64,000 nt of DNA, from contig OY727103.1 in NCBI GenBank assembly GCA_963402885.1, positions 6,734,501 through 6,798,500 on the forward strand, written 5' to 3'. The translations under genes and the position numbers were made by a program. The notes beneath the pieces are model-generated. The model made no database searches. It was not told where the DNA came from and was given only the letters and a program-made list of their open reading frames with translations. The DNA comes from Antedon bifida. Taxonomy: Eukaryota > Echinodermata > Crinoidea > Comatulida > Antedonidae. This document shows, in pieces, positions 54,944-62,640 of the stretch (position 1 is the stretch's first letter; each line of letters opens with the position of its first letter).

Positions 54944-55525
54944 GCTAGGCAACCAACCAACCAGTCAACCAATCAGTTAACAAATAAATTAATCAACCAG
55001 TCAACCGATCAGTTAACCAACCAGTCAACCAACCAGTCAACCAACCATTCAACCAATCAGTCAGTCAACCAACCAGTAACCAACCAATCACCAACCAATC
55101 AACCAACCAGTCAACCAACCAGTCAACCAACCAGTCAACCAACCAGTCAACCAACAAGTCAACCAATCAGTCAACCAACCAGTCAACCAATCAGTCAACC
55201 AACCGGTCAACCAATCAGTCAACCAACCAGTTAACCAATCAGTCAACCAACCAGTCAACCAATCAGTCATCCAACAAGTCAACCAATCAGTCAACCAACC
55301 GGTCAACCAACCGGTCAACCAACCGGTCAACCAACCAATCAGTCAACCAACCAATCAGTCAACCAACCAATCAGTCAACCAACCAACCAACCAGTCAACC
55401 AACCAACCAGTCAACCAACCAGTCAACCAATCAGTCATCCAACCAACCAGTCGACCAACCATTAAACCAAACAGTCAGCCAATCAGTCAACCAACCAGTC
55501 AACCAATCAGTCAAACAACCAATCA
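54944..55525 (+). repeat. CAACCAACCAGT / CAACCAATCAGT minisatellite
   Basis: About 580 bp of 12-bp units CAACCAACCAGT alternating with CAACCAATCAGT, with some 8- and 16-bp forms. Long frames stay open on both strands (poly SQPTNQ-type and GWLTDWL-type) because 12 is a multiple of three. They are not evidence of a gene. Confidence 0.95.
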
Positions 55526-56924
55526 TGGAAGAAACCTGACCAATCACAAGAAGCTGATCAAGCAACCAAACAAACACAGAACTCACGGCTGTTTCAAAGA
55601 TATGAATTAAGTCACGCGCCGCCAACGGTAGAGCGGTGTATTGTGGAGCTACCATTCGCAAACATTTAAACGCGAATCCATGTGTGTATACCGGAAGCTG
55701 ATTACTCATAATTTGACCGTTATAAAACCAACCAATAAGAAATAAATATAGACCGAGAGCTGAAATAAAATTATGAATATTCATTAATACAACAGCCGAG
55801 ACAGAAAGCATGTTGTTTTAAAAGCCTACTCGACTGATGACATGCTGATTTTGAGTGTAGAAATTGAGGTCCAATTCCAAACATTTTCATAAAATGCGTC
55901 TTACGTAGGCACAGTCGAAAGTAGGTATACATTTGTTTTTATATATCTTGGTTAAATGTATTTTTCACGGTAAACCTGCTGTAGGGTTTGGTAATTTAGA
56001 TCCTTGTGATTGTTGAAACATTGACTTTTTCAAAAGGTGCCGGCTGAAATTTAAATTATGGCCGGTTCAATTTATGCTATTTCTAAGCCTAGAGGACAAT
56101 TTTTGCCTTCTCCAGTCTCCACGCGCATGTGTATATACACTACATAGTTCTAGGTCTACTACACACAGTACTTACTAGGCCTGCCCTGTTTTAACTGCTA
56201 CCTCTAAGTCTATTACTATTGCTAAGCCTAGACTAGGCCTACCTTATTATTAATTAGTTAGGCCTGGTCTGGACCGCCCAAGTTAAGAGGGTAGGCTAGC
56301 TAGGGAGGAGTAGTTGAGGTAGGGCCTAAAACCTTCCTGGCTAGCCAAGAAGGGGTAGACCTAGCTAGGCTAGCTATTTCTATTATTATATATGTGGCAT
56401 ACTACTACAGTAGGCCTACATCATTCATATCAATATCATATGTGGGTCTGATAAATAATAAGCGTAATTTAAACAGAAATTACAAGAACTATCCTAGGCC
56501 AGGCGATCTACCGGTACTACAGTAGGCTAAATATGCATGTTTACAGTAAGTAAAGTATCATTATGTCTAGGCCGATACTCGTATACTTTTTTTTAGCAAA
56601 CCCGTTCTGTTATATAAACCTAATAATATATATATGTTCTTTTTTATTTAGACCAATCTTAAATCTATAGTACAGGTAATATTGCTACCAAAAGGAAGAC
56701 CGAAAAAAAAAAGATGGATGCAAACATCAAAAAGTAAACAGAATTTTTCACATGCGGACCTATACATGCTCATGCATACAGAGTGGCAAAAATACAACTG
56801 ATACGCGCAATGTCTAATGATGATTGGTGTTTAAGATGAATATTGCTAGCTTTGCACAGATAAGTAACATAAAGAATTATAATTTTTTATTACAGTATTT
56901 ATGAATATTGTTTTCAACAACATT
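55526..56924. other. no gene; AGGCCTA-rich tract at 56080-56580
   Basis: 56080-56580 is dense in AGGCCTA, CTAGGC and GCTAGCTAGG motifs. No Kelch or other coding frame is visible in the position where a RAG2-like partner might be expected. The minus-strand open frame at 55431-55811 begins outside and runs into the minisatellite; I do not support it as a gene. Confidence 0.45.
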
Positions 56925-57627
56925 ACATAAAATTAACTTTCTTATTGTATTCTCATTCCTTTAAAAATAAACCTCAACAGGCAGTTATTTCATTAATTAA
57001 CATTACATAAATTTCAACAACATACAGTTTAACCTGCATTAAAATGCTTATGTCTGGCACAACTACTATTATTAACATTACATAAATTTAAACTTTCTTA
57101 TCTTATAATACCTTTCAAAATTAACCTCAACAGGCAGTTAGCTCATTCTTCCTATTTACAACAACACAACATTAAATGTAACCTGCATTAAAATGTTAAT
57201 GCACACATCGGGCACAATGCATACTTGTACATTTCATTATTTTTCATCTTTATTTTATATTAACATTACATAAATTTAAACTTTCTTATCTTATAATGCC
57301 TTTCAAAATTAACCTCAACAGGCAGTTAGCTCATTCTTCCTATTTACAACAACACAACATTAAATGTAACCTGCATTCAAATGTTAATGCACACATCAGG
57401 CACAATGCATACTTGTACATTTCATTATTCTTCATCTTTATTTTATATTAACATTACATAAATTTAAACTTTCTTATCTTATAATGCCTTTCAAAATTAA
57501 CCTCAACAGGCAGTTAGCTCATTCTTCCTATTTACAACAACACAACATTAAATGTAACCTGCATTCAAATGTTAATGCACACATCAGGCACAATGCATAC
57601 TTGTACATTTCATTATTCTTCATCTTT
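56925..57627 (-). repeat. 188-bp tandem array made from the gene's 3' end
   Basis: CCTCAACAGG recurs at 56972, 57125, 57313 and 57501; the last two intervals are 188 bp and the copies nearest the gene are almost identical. Each of those monomers includes, on the minus strand, AAAGATGAAGAATAATGAAA: the last four codons (Lys-Asp-Glu-Glu), the stop of the RAG1-like gene, and the start of its 3' UTR. Copies further away are more diverged. Confidence 0.9.
57437..57442 (-). terminator. candidate polyadenylation signal AATAAA
   Basis: Minus-strand AATAAA about 170 bases after the stop codon of the RAG1-like gene. It is inside the 188-bp monomer and recurs one monomer further on (57249-57254), so alternative 3' ends are possible. 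Confidence 0.45.
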
Positions 57628-60600
57628 TCTCCGTTTCGTCTGGATTGTGTCTTGGATTGTTGGATCTATAAATGTTAAATGAGCTTTCATAATTGATACT
57701 AATTGATCTAGGGGGCTCTTCATCCCATACACTGACCGTTTCCTCCTATTAAATTCAGCGTGAATTAATTCCCCACCCTGCTCGGCTAGTAAGCCGATAC
57801 CAACTTTCCATTCCCTCATGAACTGGATACAATGATGTTCTAACATGTGTAGCTTTGGCTGGACTACTCTAGGAGCAACTCTCCTGTACTCTTTTGAAAA
57901 GAGTTTTATAGCACTTTCTGTGGAAGAAAGGATATTGTAACATATTATAATGGTAACAGCCCTGCATTGTAACAACGTATTCATAATTATTTAATTTTGA
58001 TTGCATTATCAATATCATTGTATCGTTATTGTGAATATTGATACTAATCTTAAATAATTATTTTATCATTTACAACTGAAATTTACCATATGTGTCTATC
58101 TCTTCGTCAGTTATAGATCGTGTATGATTGATAGCAGTGTGCACTTTACTAAAGGTTGAAAACACTGGCGTAAAAGAATCTTGGATTTTCTTGAATTTTA
58201 CCTCAAGTAGCTTTTTGCAATTTTCTGGGCATTGGTGCATTTGTTGTTTGAGTGTTACATCAACACCATCAAATAGCTTGTCAATTATATTTGACTGAAA
58301 TAAAGGTAAATAAAACTTTTTAGTTATTACCTGCATCCTTTTTTTTATTAAATGCAGCTGGGTACATTGTGTGGGATTGCACTATTCAATATACTCACTT
58401 TACATGCTCTATGAACGTGGTTGCCCACAAAACTTTTGCCGTGGTACTGTTGCCTAGGGATTTTGTTTTGTCTGAGGACCTCATCCATTTTCGTTGCCAA
58501 TGGGCCGCAACCAAATTTCAGGTCTTGGTTTACTGACGTTTCCTTTAAATTTAGACAGAATAATTTTCTTTGTAAATTCTATTATGATTTTAGTGTGTAC
58601 AGTAATTAAATAAAAATGAAACATACCAAATCCATGACTTCTTGTTTTTTCAGATTTATTTTTGCACCAAGTTCAGTTATTTCTTGAGGATTTGCTTTTT
58701 GTCCAACAAGTGCATAGGAGAGGCTATTTCGTAAATCATCAAGTTTTTGATTTGCTTTTTGCACTTTTTCTGCACAAGTAATTCTGTGTGCTGCACATTC
58801 TGCTACCTTACGGTCAAAATCTGCTAGATGTTTACCTTGAAAAAATAATTAATTATTATTATTTTTGAAAATGTGGAGGAAAAAGTTTTAAATAAAAAGG
58901 AAATTAACATTTACTGACATACCTGTTGGAATTGTAGATTCCTGTCTCATGTTGAAGATAATTACATCAAGATTGTGTATTTCAATCTCGAGCAAATCAT
59001 ACATTTTCTTGAATAGCCCGAGAGAAATATGCAGTGCTGGAATTGATACCTGGAAATATACATTAATTAAAGAGGTATGAAAATATTATTAGTTGTTTTA
59101 AGTTTGTTATTTAGAACTAATATTATTTTGGACTTGTTTGTTTGAATTATAATTTAAATAACCTACCAGATTTAATTCAATATCAACCATGTAAGGCCGG
59201 ATGACACTGTGTGATATCAGTTTGCTCTTTTTTGGGTCACTGCCATGGTCAAGAAAACTTTTGTAATCCCTGTTGTATGTCTTTAGGCATCTGTTTTCTG
59301 ATGGTTTGTTGTTAGACCTAATGTCATCTTGACTACACAGGCAGTATATACAGCTATACTTTCCTTTAAAAAAATAACAGAAACAGTATATTATTTTATT
59401 TATCAGAACAATAGTTTATTAAGTTTAAAAACTTAAATAAAAAAATAGGTGAATTTAACTAACCGTTGGGACTAATTAGTCCATATATTCTGCAAAGAAA
59501 GTCATAGTCTCCGAAGAAAAAAAGTCTGATGTTGTGAGGTCTGAAATTAGATTAATATAATTTAATTAATTAAAATAAATAATCTCTTTATATAATACTT
59601 ATCTCTTAGCATATTAACAGTACACAATATTCCAGTTAATTTAGATTGGCTTATAGGCCTACTCTAGTACAACTCCCTCTAAATGTACAAAATTATAATT
59701 TACAAATTTTAATGGAATTGTGAACTTACATTTTGGTTTTAGGAGATATCCACTGACTGCCATTCAATTCCATTACTTCATCCATTATTAAATTGAGTCC
59801 TTTGTTGATGTTGACAGTCAAATCTGGGGCCTGGAATATCAAGACTACTATAATGTTGTGGAGAGCATTTGGTTTGGGTAACGCACAAATTTGTATCTCA
59901 AATTTTGTGGTATCACCACCCTTATCGCCTCCAAATTTAATAAATATTTCTCCATTGTTGAAAAAAGTTAGTTCATCTGACCTGAAATGCAGGAAATAAT
60001 TTGTTTTATATTTATAATTCCTTATGTTATAGCTGTACATACAATTGTTAATAAATGTAACTATTGATATTTCTTATTACTAATTGATAACTTTTATTTA
60101 GTTTGGTTGTTAAATAAAATTGTTATTAACATACAGTTTGTGTTTGTTTTTTTTAAAAAAATTATTAATGTGTACATTTTACGATATTTTAAAAGTACAA
60201 AATATATGTTCAAGTTTTAGTGGTACTGTACTGTATGTATAATAAAAATGCACATCACTGGGTACAGTACTATTACAATACTATAAAAGTTTAGTAAAAG
60301 CCAATCAGCAATGTGTTGTAAGGATAACCAGGAATGGATAAAAAATTGTATACATACATTTCATATTGATTTAAATATTCATAAATCAGTTTCTTAATTT
60401 GGGTGAGTCTGACGACTGCAACCTCTTCCAATGACAGCCCACCAATTGACGTAGCTCCTTCCCTCTTTACAAACATATACTCGGTTGATTTAACTAAATA
60501 GCCATCAACAATTTTGTCTTGGCATATTCTCATCTGGCGTTCTGATGCTAGTAAGCCTGGACAAAACCTAAAAATCAAATAAATAATTCAACTGCATAAT

Positions 60601-61810
60601 AATTTTCATAGTGATCAGTATGTTTTATTACAGTAGTTCTGCAGTGGTTTATAAATCAATCAATTTATTCGTTATGGATTATGAGAATTCACTAATTAAA
60701 ACTTCAATTACCTTCGTAATGCCCGCTGCTGACTCCAATTTATTTTGCAGGCGTTCATGATACCAAGGCACCTTGTTGCATCCATTTTTTGACCATTAGT
60801 ATCTGGTGCAGCAACATTCACTTTGGTGGCTTGTGAAGTGGTAACCATGTTTAGTGGCTTCAAAATTGAAAATGTTTTCAATTAATTACAACCAGAAAAT
60901 AATATTTAAGCCTCACAAAATAATGACTAATCAGATGATTTTAAAGGAAAATTATTTTATTATTATATAATATTAATAATCGGATTTGGAATCTTACCCG
61001 TCCTTGAGTTTTCAAAGTTATTTTCCCTTCAGTCACATCTTGATGAACTAGCTTATGTGCCAGATTTGATAGCTCTGTTGGGTAGACATTTGTGTTGGCA
61101 GTTGCAGTTTGGATGTCTTTAACAGCATTTCTAATTTTCATAAAAGCTTGTTCCTTTTCCGTTTTACATACATGATTGTCTGTTTCACTTAGGTATAATT
61201 TTGACAGACAAATAGAACATTGAAGGACAACTGATGTTAATGAGTGCTCAATGATTGCCGGAATTTGCACAAGTTCGTCCTTCTTAAAATTAAAATTACA
61301 ACTAAAACAGGGAATAGATAATTTGGAAATAGCAGAAAACAATTTAGTTGTACAGTGTGTACAAAAAAAATGGCCACATGGTGTCTGGACGCTATCAAGA
61401 GATAACATTTTATTGCAAATTAAGCATTCATAAATTTTATCACAATCGTTTAAGATTTTGAACTGCCGACTGATTGTGGCTAGCGGCGGAGGAACTGAAG
61501 TAAAATTACCGCTTGTGCCTCTTTGAAAATTTTGTTTCTGTCTTCGCCCTGATACTAGTTGACTTCTGTATAAAAAACATGCTAGACATCTTTCCTCATG
61601 TGGCTTATAATGAAACGGCGAAAGAGAATGCCCTTTATAAAATCGTGAATGACAAGTGGAACAAAGTGCCTCTGGATCAACAGAATTTTTAATTTCAAAT
61701 AAAGGGGGTAATTTGTTCATGTTGGCCAAAGTGTACCTCTCATCTTTTTCTTTCATTTTTTTTCCACAATCAAAACAAATAGAGGACAGTGCCTTCTCAT
61801 GAAACTCCAT
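57613..61810 (-). CDS. RAG1-like RING/zinc-finger DDE transposase-related protein, 11 coding exons
   Basis: Exons: 61810-60998, 60857-60712, 60567-60358, 59981-59730, 59540-59464, 59363-59167, 59049-58923, 58835-58627, 58542-58399, 58294-58087, 57917-57613. All ten introns (84-376 bp) are GT-AG and every phase matches, giving 895 residues. Order of parts: a CxxC...CxxC...H-x3-H...CxxC zinc domain (C12, C15, C50, C53, H67, H71, C75, C78); a C3HC4 RING (C129 to C171); a C2HC finger (C198, C201, H213, C215); and a core with D409 in GGDKGGD, D485 in FGDYDFLC, C504/C507, H818, H822/H823 and E844 in EQGGE. Residues 608-677 are helical, perhaps coiled-coil. RAG1 has the same order of zinc domain, RING, zinc finger and DDE core; its triad is D600, D708, E962 with C727, C730, H937, H942. 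Likely a nuclear DNA-binding transposase or a domesticated relative, possibly with RING E3 activity. Whether it belongs with RAG1L/Transib or with Chapaev-type N-RAG-TP is unsettled. The first ATG follows a strong acceptor, CCACAG, so a 5' exon is likely. Confidence 0.88.
60998..61810 (-). other. exon with the RAG1-type N-terminal zinc domain and RING
   Basis: Encodes residues 1-271 and ends exactly in phase 0 before a GTAAGA donor. The reading frame continues open past the donor to 60941 but that extension (VRFQIRLL...) is intron. All three zinc modules sit in this one exon, so a transcript lacking later exons would still make a complete RING protein. Confidence 0.85.
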
Positions 61811-62640
61811 CTGTGGGAAGATAGTATTTCACATTTGATACAGTGCAATTCCATTTGTTGTAAACTAAATTAATATCTAGTTCTAGGCCTAGGAAAACAT
61901 GCATATTCAGTGAATATTGAAATTAATAAATGAAACAATCGTATTAGCTAGCATTATTAAAAATTATTAATAATCATGTTACTTAAGGAAATTTAATTCA
62001 TTGCGAAAAAATCACACAGGCTTGGGCCTAGCTTAAAGCTAGGCCGCCAGAAAGGCCACGCTCGTCGCGGGCCTCGTCTGCGCCTGCATACCCGGTGATC
62101 GGCTAATGTTTCAAAAAAGGCTGTTGTATTACGATAATTTATAAGATATTGAACCGTCACCTTTTAACAAAACTATGTTAAATATTACCAATTAGTATTA
62201 TTGGTTTACAGAAAATAAGTATTATCTTTTAAAAAATAACGATGTAAACACAATCGGTGAAGTTAGACGGTGTATTTTTAACTTTTGTTTGTTTACAATA
62301 TAGACTACGCTGTTCGCTGCTACTTCCGGGTAAATTAACCGACTTTTATATTCGATAAGTCGTCTTAGTAATTGTTTTTTTATCATTATGCTGTAATGAA
62401 ATCATAAAAAATCTGGTTTCAAACCAGCAAATACTAACCTTAATTGATAACTTGATTAAAAAAACGTTAAATTGACTACAAATGATACTTGTATATTTTT
62501 GACGTTCGCGAAAGTTTCATAACCTCTCGCGAACGAATTTTCAATCTTCCGCGGTTCAGAAAAAGTCGTCTGCTAACATTGAGGGCGCTTGACTTTTTCT
62601 AAAATATTATCATAGGTTGAAACAGCTGTGAACTACTGAT
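61811..62640 (-). promoter_or_regulatory. 5' flank: likely intron, 5' UTR exon and promoter of the RAG1-like gene
   Basis: Immediately upstream of the ATG the minus strand reads TATCTTCCCACAG, a good splice acceptor. A plausible donor, AAG before GTTAGT, lies at 62438-62433, which would give a 5' UTR exon starting above 62439. Further up are an inverted repeat GTTCGCGA (62504-62511) / TCGCGAAC (62527-62534) and another, AGAAAAAGTC (62558-62567) / GACTTTTTCT (62591-62600). A GC-rich island at 62041-62105 lies within the presumed intron. All of this is inferred from sequence motifs. Confidence 0.4.

Follow-up and report, generated by a model that had tools for sequence, protein, structure and literature searches.

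How the N-terminal half of RAG1, its core, and the 12/23 signals were assembled into the V(D)J recombinase is an old question, and a gene of the crinoid Antedon bifida raises it again. The gene was found in a window of 64,000 nucleotides (the whole stretch of contig OY727103.1, assembly GCA_963402885.1, that was analysed), and the order of its predicted domains recalls RAG1. What kind of gene is it? On sequence evidence we consider it, with a probability of about 95%, to encode the transposase of a DNA transposon from the Chapaev group (CMC/CMCT lineage), one that is probably autonomous and was mobile until recently.

Gene structure and predicted protein

Eleven exons on the minus strand, running from 61810 to 57613, yield a single frame of 895 residues plus a stop codon, and all ten introns are GT-AG introns with matching phases. 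The same exon borders were recovered from the window by a spliced aligner, and the same gene is present in a second copy of the element (copy2, see below), which bears out the exon model that a sequence-only reading of this DNA had put forward. Exon 1 (813 nt, 60998-61810) encodes residues 1-271 with a Chapa-type zinc domain, a RING (about residues 128-172), and a zinc finger, and ends in phase 0 between the R and the P of a GRP motif; it is followed by exon 2 (146 nt, 60712-60857) and exon 3 (210 nt, 60358-60567). The presumed first catalytic aspartate, D409 (GGDKGG), lies in exon 4 (252 nt, 59730-59981), the presumed second, D485 (GDYDF), in exon 5 (77 nt, 59464-59540), the cysteine pair C504/C507 (CIYC) in exon 6 (197 nt, 59167-59363), and a SIPALHISLG motif in exon 7 (127 nt, 58923-59049). 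Beyond exons 8 (209 nt, 58627-58835), 9 (144 nt, 58399-58542), and 10 (208 nt, 58087-58294), exon 11 (305 nt, 57613-57917) carries the histidine pair H818/H823, the presumed catalytic glutamate E844 with the likewise conserved E840 beside it, and the stop codon. The protein displays a DDE arrangement with C(2)C and H(3-4)H motifs between the second D and the E (D409, D485, C504xxC507, H818x4H823, and E844/E840), and these columns are invariant in a six-row alignment (A4).

A splice acceptor lies directly ahead of the first coding codon in all four subfamilies compared, and an upstream GTAAGT donor is found in three of them, the window copy being the one that lacks it. Together these sites make a short upstream exon likely in the family, and the exact 5' structure of the gene is thus provisional.

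The transposon and its unequal ends

The gene lies within a complete Chapaev-type DNA transposon of 7,047 bp (55584-62630), in which it is oriented on the minus strand. The borders are the points where similarity to other copies stops, the ends are inverted (CAC...GTG), and the length was taken from the paired ends. This enclosing transposon was missed by the sequence-only reading. The tetranucleotide AACT flanks the element on the left (55580-55583) and on the right (62631-62634) as a target-site duplication. A 4-bp target duplication was found in nine of the nine elements with both flanks read (the window element, copy2, L014, L017, L024, L033, L034, L037, and L038), in agreement with the 3-4 bp of Chapaev (CMC) elements. 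CAC...GTG ends and 4-bp target duplications are described as Chapaev hallmarks (PMC4079192; this and the other PMC-numbered sources are cited from excerpts). Furthermore, a tandem array of three 188-bp units (57070-57627) spans the stop codon and the 3' region, and counts one unit fewer in copy2 than in the window element.

Both ends are bipartite. At the 3'-side end (plus strand), block 1 of the inverted terminal repeat (CACGGCTGTTTCA, 55584-55596) is followed by a 12-nt spacer (55597-55608) and a second block that begins with AAGTCACGCGCC (55609-55629). At the 5'-side end (minus strand), block 1 (CACAGCTGTTTCA, 62618-62630) is followed by a 22-nt spacer (62596-62617) and the common second block, beginning with AAGTCAAGCGCCCTCA (62575-62595). 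This unequal layout is kept in four subfamilies: the short spacer measures 12 nt in 7/7 such ends read and the long one 22 or 21 nt in 11/11. The two spacers thus differ by roughly one helical turn of DNA, as do those of the DNA signals that RAG1 uses. A nonamer-like second block is absent, block 2 being AAGTNNNGCGCC and not ACAAAAACC. No description of unequal bipartite Chapaev ends was found in the open-licence literature searched.

We infer from this layout that the unequal ends may function in a 12/23-like manner. It is possible, at rather less than even odds, that this Chapaev family, still alive and separate from both RAG and Transib, follows a 12/23-like rule of its own, by which a RAG1-related transposase would pair a 12-spacer with a 22-spacer end through the two blocks. 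It is fairly probable, on the other hand, that the spacing is a leftover of how the subterminal repeats came about and reflects no pairing rule; this account bears on nothing but the ends and can stand beside the Chapaev transposase reading. Transposons often have subterminal repeats that are unequal, and the spacing counts as a single evolutionary event because the four subfamilies share one ancestor. In addition, the second block taken alone is not significant for L017, nor for L014 with 12-mers. Against a mere leftover speaks the constancy of the spacer lengths while the spacer sequence is poorly kept: across the four subfamilies, 7/12 and 7/22 spacer positions are identical, compared with 15/21 and 18/21 positions of block 2. 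Nor did any element prove to have short spacers at both ends, and the sole pair of short-spacer ends within 20 kb (14.7 kb apart) belongs to two neighbouring elements, each with its own long-spacer end.

CAC...GTG termini also occur in two further families of the same genome, whose evidence on the spacing is divided. The second family (L033), more distant and with other ends, shows a 9-nt offset between its end spacings, which argues against a leftover, whereas the third (L037/L038) has no significant second block, which favours it and counts against the generality of a pairing rule. L035 and L036 carry the second family's left end, and its right end was not found there. For a clustered family on C8 the ends were sought without success: the border common to two copies begins without CAC and is crossed by the sequence at 13 other places, and the search did not get as far as the opposite end.

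Copies and recent mobility

The sequence-only reading had named genome copy number as a check, and the gene proves not to be single-copy: the element has many dispersed copies, and 29 paired elements were counted in the genome, 13 of them 6.9-9.1 kb and 16 of them 3.2-3.9 kb long. The 30 matches to the left-end search pattern serve as a copy count and not as a test of spacing because the pattern presets the 12-nt spacing. L012 and L013 were rejected as two separate insertions, as they share the same flank and represent a segmental duplication.

Copy2 is a second full insertion, 0.69 Mb from the window element and with its own target duplication (TAAC). The two differ by 7 substitutions in 6,859 aligned bases, and the three that fall in exons leave the protein unaltered (895/895 residues identical). 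A near-identical copy with a different target duplication indicates that the family has been recently mobile. Gene models were built for eight copies other than the window element. Copy2, L014, and L015 have eleven exons and no stop, although the model of L015 lacks a start codon at the corresponding place, and L017 is stop-free but modelled with 12 exons; L012, L022, L023, and L024 contain 2 to 10 stops each. L014 and L015 represent two other subfamilies, with 65-66% amino-acid identity to the window protein. The window gene gives a pN of 0.22 and a pS of 0.84 against L014, and the same against L015; dN/dS was left uncomputed because pS is saturated. Non-synonymous change is far rarer per site than synonymous change, which points to constraint on the protein between subfamilies.

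With four of the eight other modelled copies broken, the window element might be a fossil whose frame is open by chance. The few differences from copy2, silent for the protein where they are exonic, and the stop-free frames of two further subfamilies make this very unlikely.

Relation to RAG1 and to host genes

In an hhalign profile comparison, the exon 1 region matched the N-terminal zinc region of RAG1 with a probability of 98, an E-value of 5.4e-14, and a score of 101, as compared with at most 20.6 across 20 column shuffles. This measure identifies the N-terminal part as homologous to RAG1. The RAG1 search returned 250 proteins, of which 19, among the 120 matches listed, were used; the relatives' searches yielded 7 proteins, of which P0007 was left out (no Pfam domain, 6% overlap). 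RINGs are found in many unrelated proteins, and the one in the window protein scores under the Pfam cut-off. The RAG1 importin-binding model PF12560 has no match in the window protein; it is matched by relatives, one of which (P0003) passes its cut-off. Searching exon 1 against NCBIfam brought no informative match (best E 0.91).

The core is RAG1-like only weakly. A core-only profile alignment to RAG1 scored 36.0 (E 0.0014), whereas 30 shuffles reached no more than 22.3 and the reversed profile 17.7; the probability of the match was just 17.7%. The alignment pairs D485, C504/C507, H818/H823, and E844 with D708, C727/C730, H937/H942, and E962 of RAG1; D409 lies outside it. As the N-terminal region forms part of the full A4-to-A3 alignment (E 2.4e-22), that alignment was excluded as evidence on the core. 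Residues 361-462 match the Pfam family DUF1280 (E 1.4e-14, 54.7 bits against a cut-off of 25), which is equated with Chapaev and falls into one clade with RAG1 (PMC3985635).

Could this instead be a genuine RAG1L gene, belonging to a RAG-like transposon of the ProtoRAG type whose RAG2L partner was possibly lost or overlooked? The RAG1-like order of the N-terminal domains and the resemblance of the CAC ends to the RSS heptamer would suit such a gene. The core, however, is DUF1280, and the Pfam model of the RAG1 core (PF12940) has no match in the window protein up to E 10; its search of the genome was also blank, and the control genomes were silent too, which leaves absence unproven. Shark RAG1 gave 22 matches in the genome, all within residues 263-383 (the RING region) and none in the core. 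The target duplication is 4 bp long, compared with 5 bp almost always in RAGL elements (PMC7204232). A Pfam search of the genome for RAG2 found no match, absence being unproven here as well by silent control genomes. A second gene was sought among the 42 frames outside the transposase gene that reach 30 codons or more (the longest 83) by translated comparison with four other elements, and none was conserved: such frames matched only in the terminal 240 bp and in scattered stretches that were short and weak. The control exons, 10 and 11, matched in 4/4. By this comparison the element has no conserved second coding region and one recognisable gene. A RAG1L gene is most improbable, and the sequence classes this one as a cousin of RAG1 and Transib outside the RAG1L group.

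The sequence-only reading had described a RAG1-like gene of near-complete RAG1 architecture, either a live transposase that had gained introns or a domesticated relative. Its order of zinc domain, RING, further zinc finger, and DDE core is indeed that of RAG1, and a profile comparison of the kind that it proposed confirmed the N-terminal part. A RAG1 or RAG1L gene it is not, given the Chapaev core, the 4-bp duplication, and the lack of a detected RAG2-like partner. Of its two alternatives the transposase is the better one and nothing points to domestication: that a Chapaev element became a host gene is scarcely credible, for all the intact frame, the many introns, and the protein constraint, as both ends and the target duplications are kept, a near-identical copy with its own duplication sits elsewhere among the many paired copies, and such constraint is equally expected of a living transposon.

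Comparison with known systems

Chapaev elements that carry a RAG1-like N-terminal part were published in 2015 (PMC4411706), and the zinc/RING plus Chapaev architecture is therefore not new as such. Like Chapaev (Kapitonov and Jurka 2007, via PMC4411706 and PMC4079192), the present element has CAC...GTG ends, a 4-bp duplication, a DUF1280 DDE core, and, as in two Chapaev subgroups, a Chapa zinc domain followed by a RING; relative to the excerpted Chapaev descriptions it adds further families, eleven coding exons, and measured bipartite unequal ends. With RAG1/RAG1L and ProtoRAG it shares a homologous zinc/RING region at the N-terminus, CAC termini, a DDE core with C(2)C and H-x4-H pairs around it, and unequal bipartite ends (27/31 in ProtoRAG and 12/23 in the RSS; PMC8289069), whereas its core lies beyond the reach of the RAG1 Pfam model, its duplication measures 4 and not 5 bp, no RAG2L was found, and the second block is another. 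Transib belongs to the same CMCT lineage and has the C(2)C and H(3-4)H motifs (PMC12730594), but is without the N-terminal region (PMC4411706, PMC7204232), and most of its families have symmetric ends (PMC8289069). N-RAG-TP of Aplysia (Panchin and Moroz), compared by description only, likewise places a RAG1 N-terminal-like sequence in a mobile element, that of a mollusc (PMC8355894).

Proposed mechanism and implications

The spliced transposase, probably as a dimer, would pair one short-spacer with one long-spacer end and cut next to CAC by means of a D409/D485/E844 site that a Cys2/His2 zinc site supports; insertion of the element would then be staggered by 4 bp. Deletion derivatives moved in trans may account for the short copies. 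By analogy with RAG1, the RING and zinc region probably aids dimerisation or ubiquitin transfer.

An intact, recently mobile element with one recognisable gene combines the N-terminal region of RAG1, a RAG1-type zinc/DDE layout, and ends whose spacings differ by about one helical turn. With both ends and an open frame in hand, and no sign of a RAG2-like partner in the searches made, a one-turn spacing rule outside RAG can be tested at the bench. If the rule is real, a bipartite signal with one-turn asymmetry would either predate the RAG lineage or have evolved repeatedly in transposases related to RAG1.

A recently mobile Chapaev family

The eleven-exon gene proposed by the sequence-only reading is present on the minus strand with all its exons (61810–57613), whose GT-AG borders and matching phases give 895 residues and a stop codon. 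The exon borders were reproduced by a purpose-written spliced aligner run on the window, which was also used for the gene models in other copies. What that reading overlooked is the gene's location inside a transposon. When the window was aligned with copies in the same 315-Mb genome of Antedon bifida, homology stopped at 55584 and at about 62630; the element has the termini CACGGCTGTTTCA... and ...TGAAACAGCTGTG and is bordered by AACT at both ends. Nor is the gene single. A second element (copy2), with TAAC flanks, lies 0.69 Mb off on the same contig. Over 6,859 aligned bases it differs by 7 substitutions; it also shows two indels (1 and 3 nt) and has one 188-bp tandem unit less, while its protein is identical. 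Duplications of 4 bases were found in all nine elements with both flanks read, namely five of the window family (window, copy2, and L014, L017, and L024, which represent three further subfamilies), two of a second Chapaev family (L033 and L034), and two of a third (L037 and L038).

Genome-wide, at least 32 left-type ends (3' side of the gene; 30 by a pattern with the 12-nt spacing built in, whose reversed control had 0 matches, and 2 by similarity) and at least 40 right-type ends (5' side) were counted, all of these being lower bounds. They pair into at least 29 elements, 13 of 6.9–9.1 kb and 16 of 3.2–3.9 kb, leaving 3 left and 11 right ends over. The shorter class looks like deletion derivatives mobilised in trans. 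The protein is under constraint (pN 0.22, saturated pS 0.84) when the window is compared with L014 and with the further related copy L015. With its open gene, ends, duplications, recent copies, short size class, and constraint, the element is a new, intact, and recently mobile family of Chapaev, a known group.

A tandem array of three 188-bp units (57070-57627) covers the last 15 coding bases and the 3' region of the gene, and the two young copies do not have the same number of units. A 12-bp minisatellite (CAACCAACCAGT, 47 units, 54954-55525) lies near the insertion site. In the stretch before the coding region (61811-62300 in the window), a splice acceptor immediately precedes the first coding codon in all four subfamilies, and a GTAAGT donor lies farther upstream in three of them, which suggests an unannotated 5' exon; in L024, a start codon may stand at the very end of this candidate exon.

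Relationship to RAG1

Chapaev transposases carry DUF1280 and form one clade with RAG1, according to PMC3985635. The window protein matches DUF1280 at residues 361-462 (Pfam, E 1.4e-14) and a RING model, under the curated cut-off, at residues 128-172. Among 5.8 billion proteins, seven relatives were found, six of which (P0001-P0006) have DUF1280; P0007, having no domain, was excluded. P0003 exceeds the cut-offs for PF12560 (the RAG1 importin-binding model), RING models, and DUF1280, and P0004 has the same three as precomputed matches, its EukProt name being taken from a RING protein. The RAG1-like domain order is real, but it was previously known for Chapaev. A profile of P0001-P0006 matched full-length RAG1 in the PDB (E 2.8e-12, RAG1 101-377), with a second, collinear stretch (RAG1 878-1003) that is not significant by itself.

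An exon 1 profile (window, L014, L015) was compared with the N-terminal regions of 19 RAG1 proteins from vertebrates, chosen from at least 120 matches listed, giving probability 98, E 5.4e-14, and score 101, whereas 20 column shuffles reached no more than 20.6. With just the first 100 residues, the probability was 27 and the score 27.9 (at most 17.1 in 20 shuffles). For the core alone (8 sequences), the probability was only 17.7%, with E 0.0014 and score 36.0; the best of 30 shuffles scored 22.3, and a reversed profile 17.7. Judged against these controls, the N-terminal homology to RAG1 is solid and that of the core distant but supported. In the core alignment, which does not include D409, the residues D485, C504/C507, H818/H823, and E844 fall on RAG1 D708, C727/C730, H937/H942, and E962, and the motif SIPALHISLG falls on SIDALHCDIG. 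The downstream border of exon 1, a phase 0 junction, separates R from P in a GRP motif; this motif aligns with RAG1 GRPR, the start of the RAG1 nonamer-binding domain. The C(2)C and H(3-4)H motifs common to Chapaev, Transib, and RAG1 have already been published (PMC12730594).

The RAG1 core model PF12940 matched neither the window protein nor the genome, and RAG2 had no match in the genome; the control genomes likewise lacked matches to both. Shark RAG1 gave 22 genomic matches, every one within residues 263-383, and by position 12 of them fall in copies of the window family. The part of the element outside the gene contains 42 frames of 30 codons or more (longest 83), whose matches to L014, L017, L024, and L033 are confined to the terminal 240 bp apart from a few weak, short stretches. 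Exons 10 and 11, as positive controls, match in all four. A second gene is therefore unlikely.

Unequal bipartite ends

Each end consists of block 1, 13 nt counted inward from CAC, and block 2, AAGT...GCGC. Among ends with the block-1 pattern in retrieved DNA, block 2 follows after 12 nt in all seven that lie 3' of the gene; in the 11 that lie 5' of it, the distance is 22 nt (five) or 21 nt (six). In a similarity search, the aligned part of 40 right-type ends showed no net length change from the window end in 31, one nt less in 7, 3 nt less in one, and 3 nt more in one. Across the four subfamilies, 15/21 and 18/21 block 2 positions are identical, and the spacers are more divergent (7/12 for the short, 7/22 for the long). 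The best common 16-mer of both ends is offset by 10 in the window, L014, and L024 and by 9 in L017; of 200 shuffles, 1.0% (window), 0.5% (L014), 6.5% (L017), and 0% (L024) equalled the match, the values for 12-mers being 0.5%, 9.5%, 9.0%, and 1.0%. The four subfamilies count as one origin because they share a common ancestor. The second family, with distinct ends (CACGGCAGTTTC, L033), has an offset of 9 (0% of shuffles for 16-mers, 0.5% for 12-mers), and the third (CACGTATCCGCG, L037/L038) has no significant offset, 41–82% of shuffles being as good. The unequal ends may follow a functional spacing rule.

The transposase would act as a dimeric DDE enzyme that pairs the unequal ends with each other, cleaves at CAC, and inserts with a 4-bp stagger; the RING region may have a structural or ubiquitin-related role. 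Block 2 is unlike the RAG nonamer. According to PMC8289069, the two blocks of ProtoRAG ends are separated by 27 and 31 nt, and Transib ends are mostly symmetric, unlike those described here. The authors of PMC7204232 expected asymmetry of the ends to matter rather little to invertebrate RAGL. In the open-licence literature searched, no account of a spacing of this kind was found for Chapaev.

Chapaev in the Antedon bifida genome

DUF1280 has 66 matches in the genome, on contigs C1, C5, C8, C9, C10, C11, C12, C14, C15, C16, and C22, and numerous Chapaev copies from several families are present. Another Chapaev-like gene, with DUF1280 and RAG1-type PF12560 matches mostly in an open frame of 326 residues, has 20 copies with 95–100% identity across the 500–700 bp compared. 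Nineteen are on C8 (including L029, L030, L031, and L032), within about 0.65 Mb (21.55–22.21 Mb) and in both orientations, and one is on C22; local amplification, not ordinary dispersal, is a possible source of the C8 cluster. The Antedon bifida genome is a favourable place for the study of Chapaev, and the unequal bipartite ends are the part worth pursuing.
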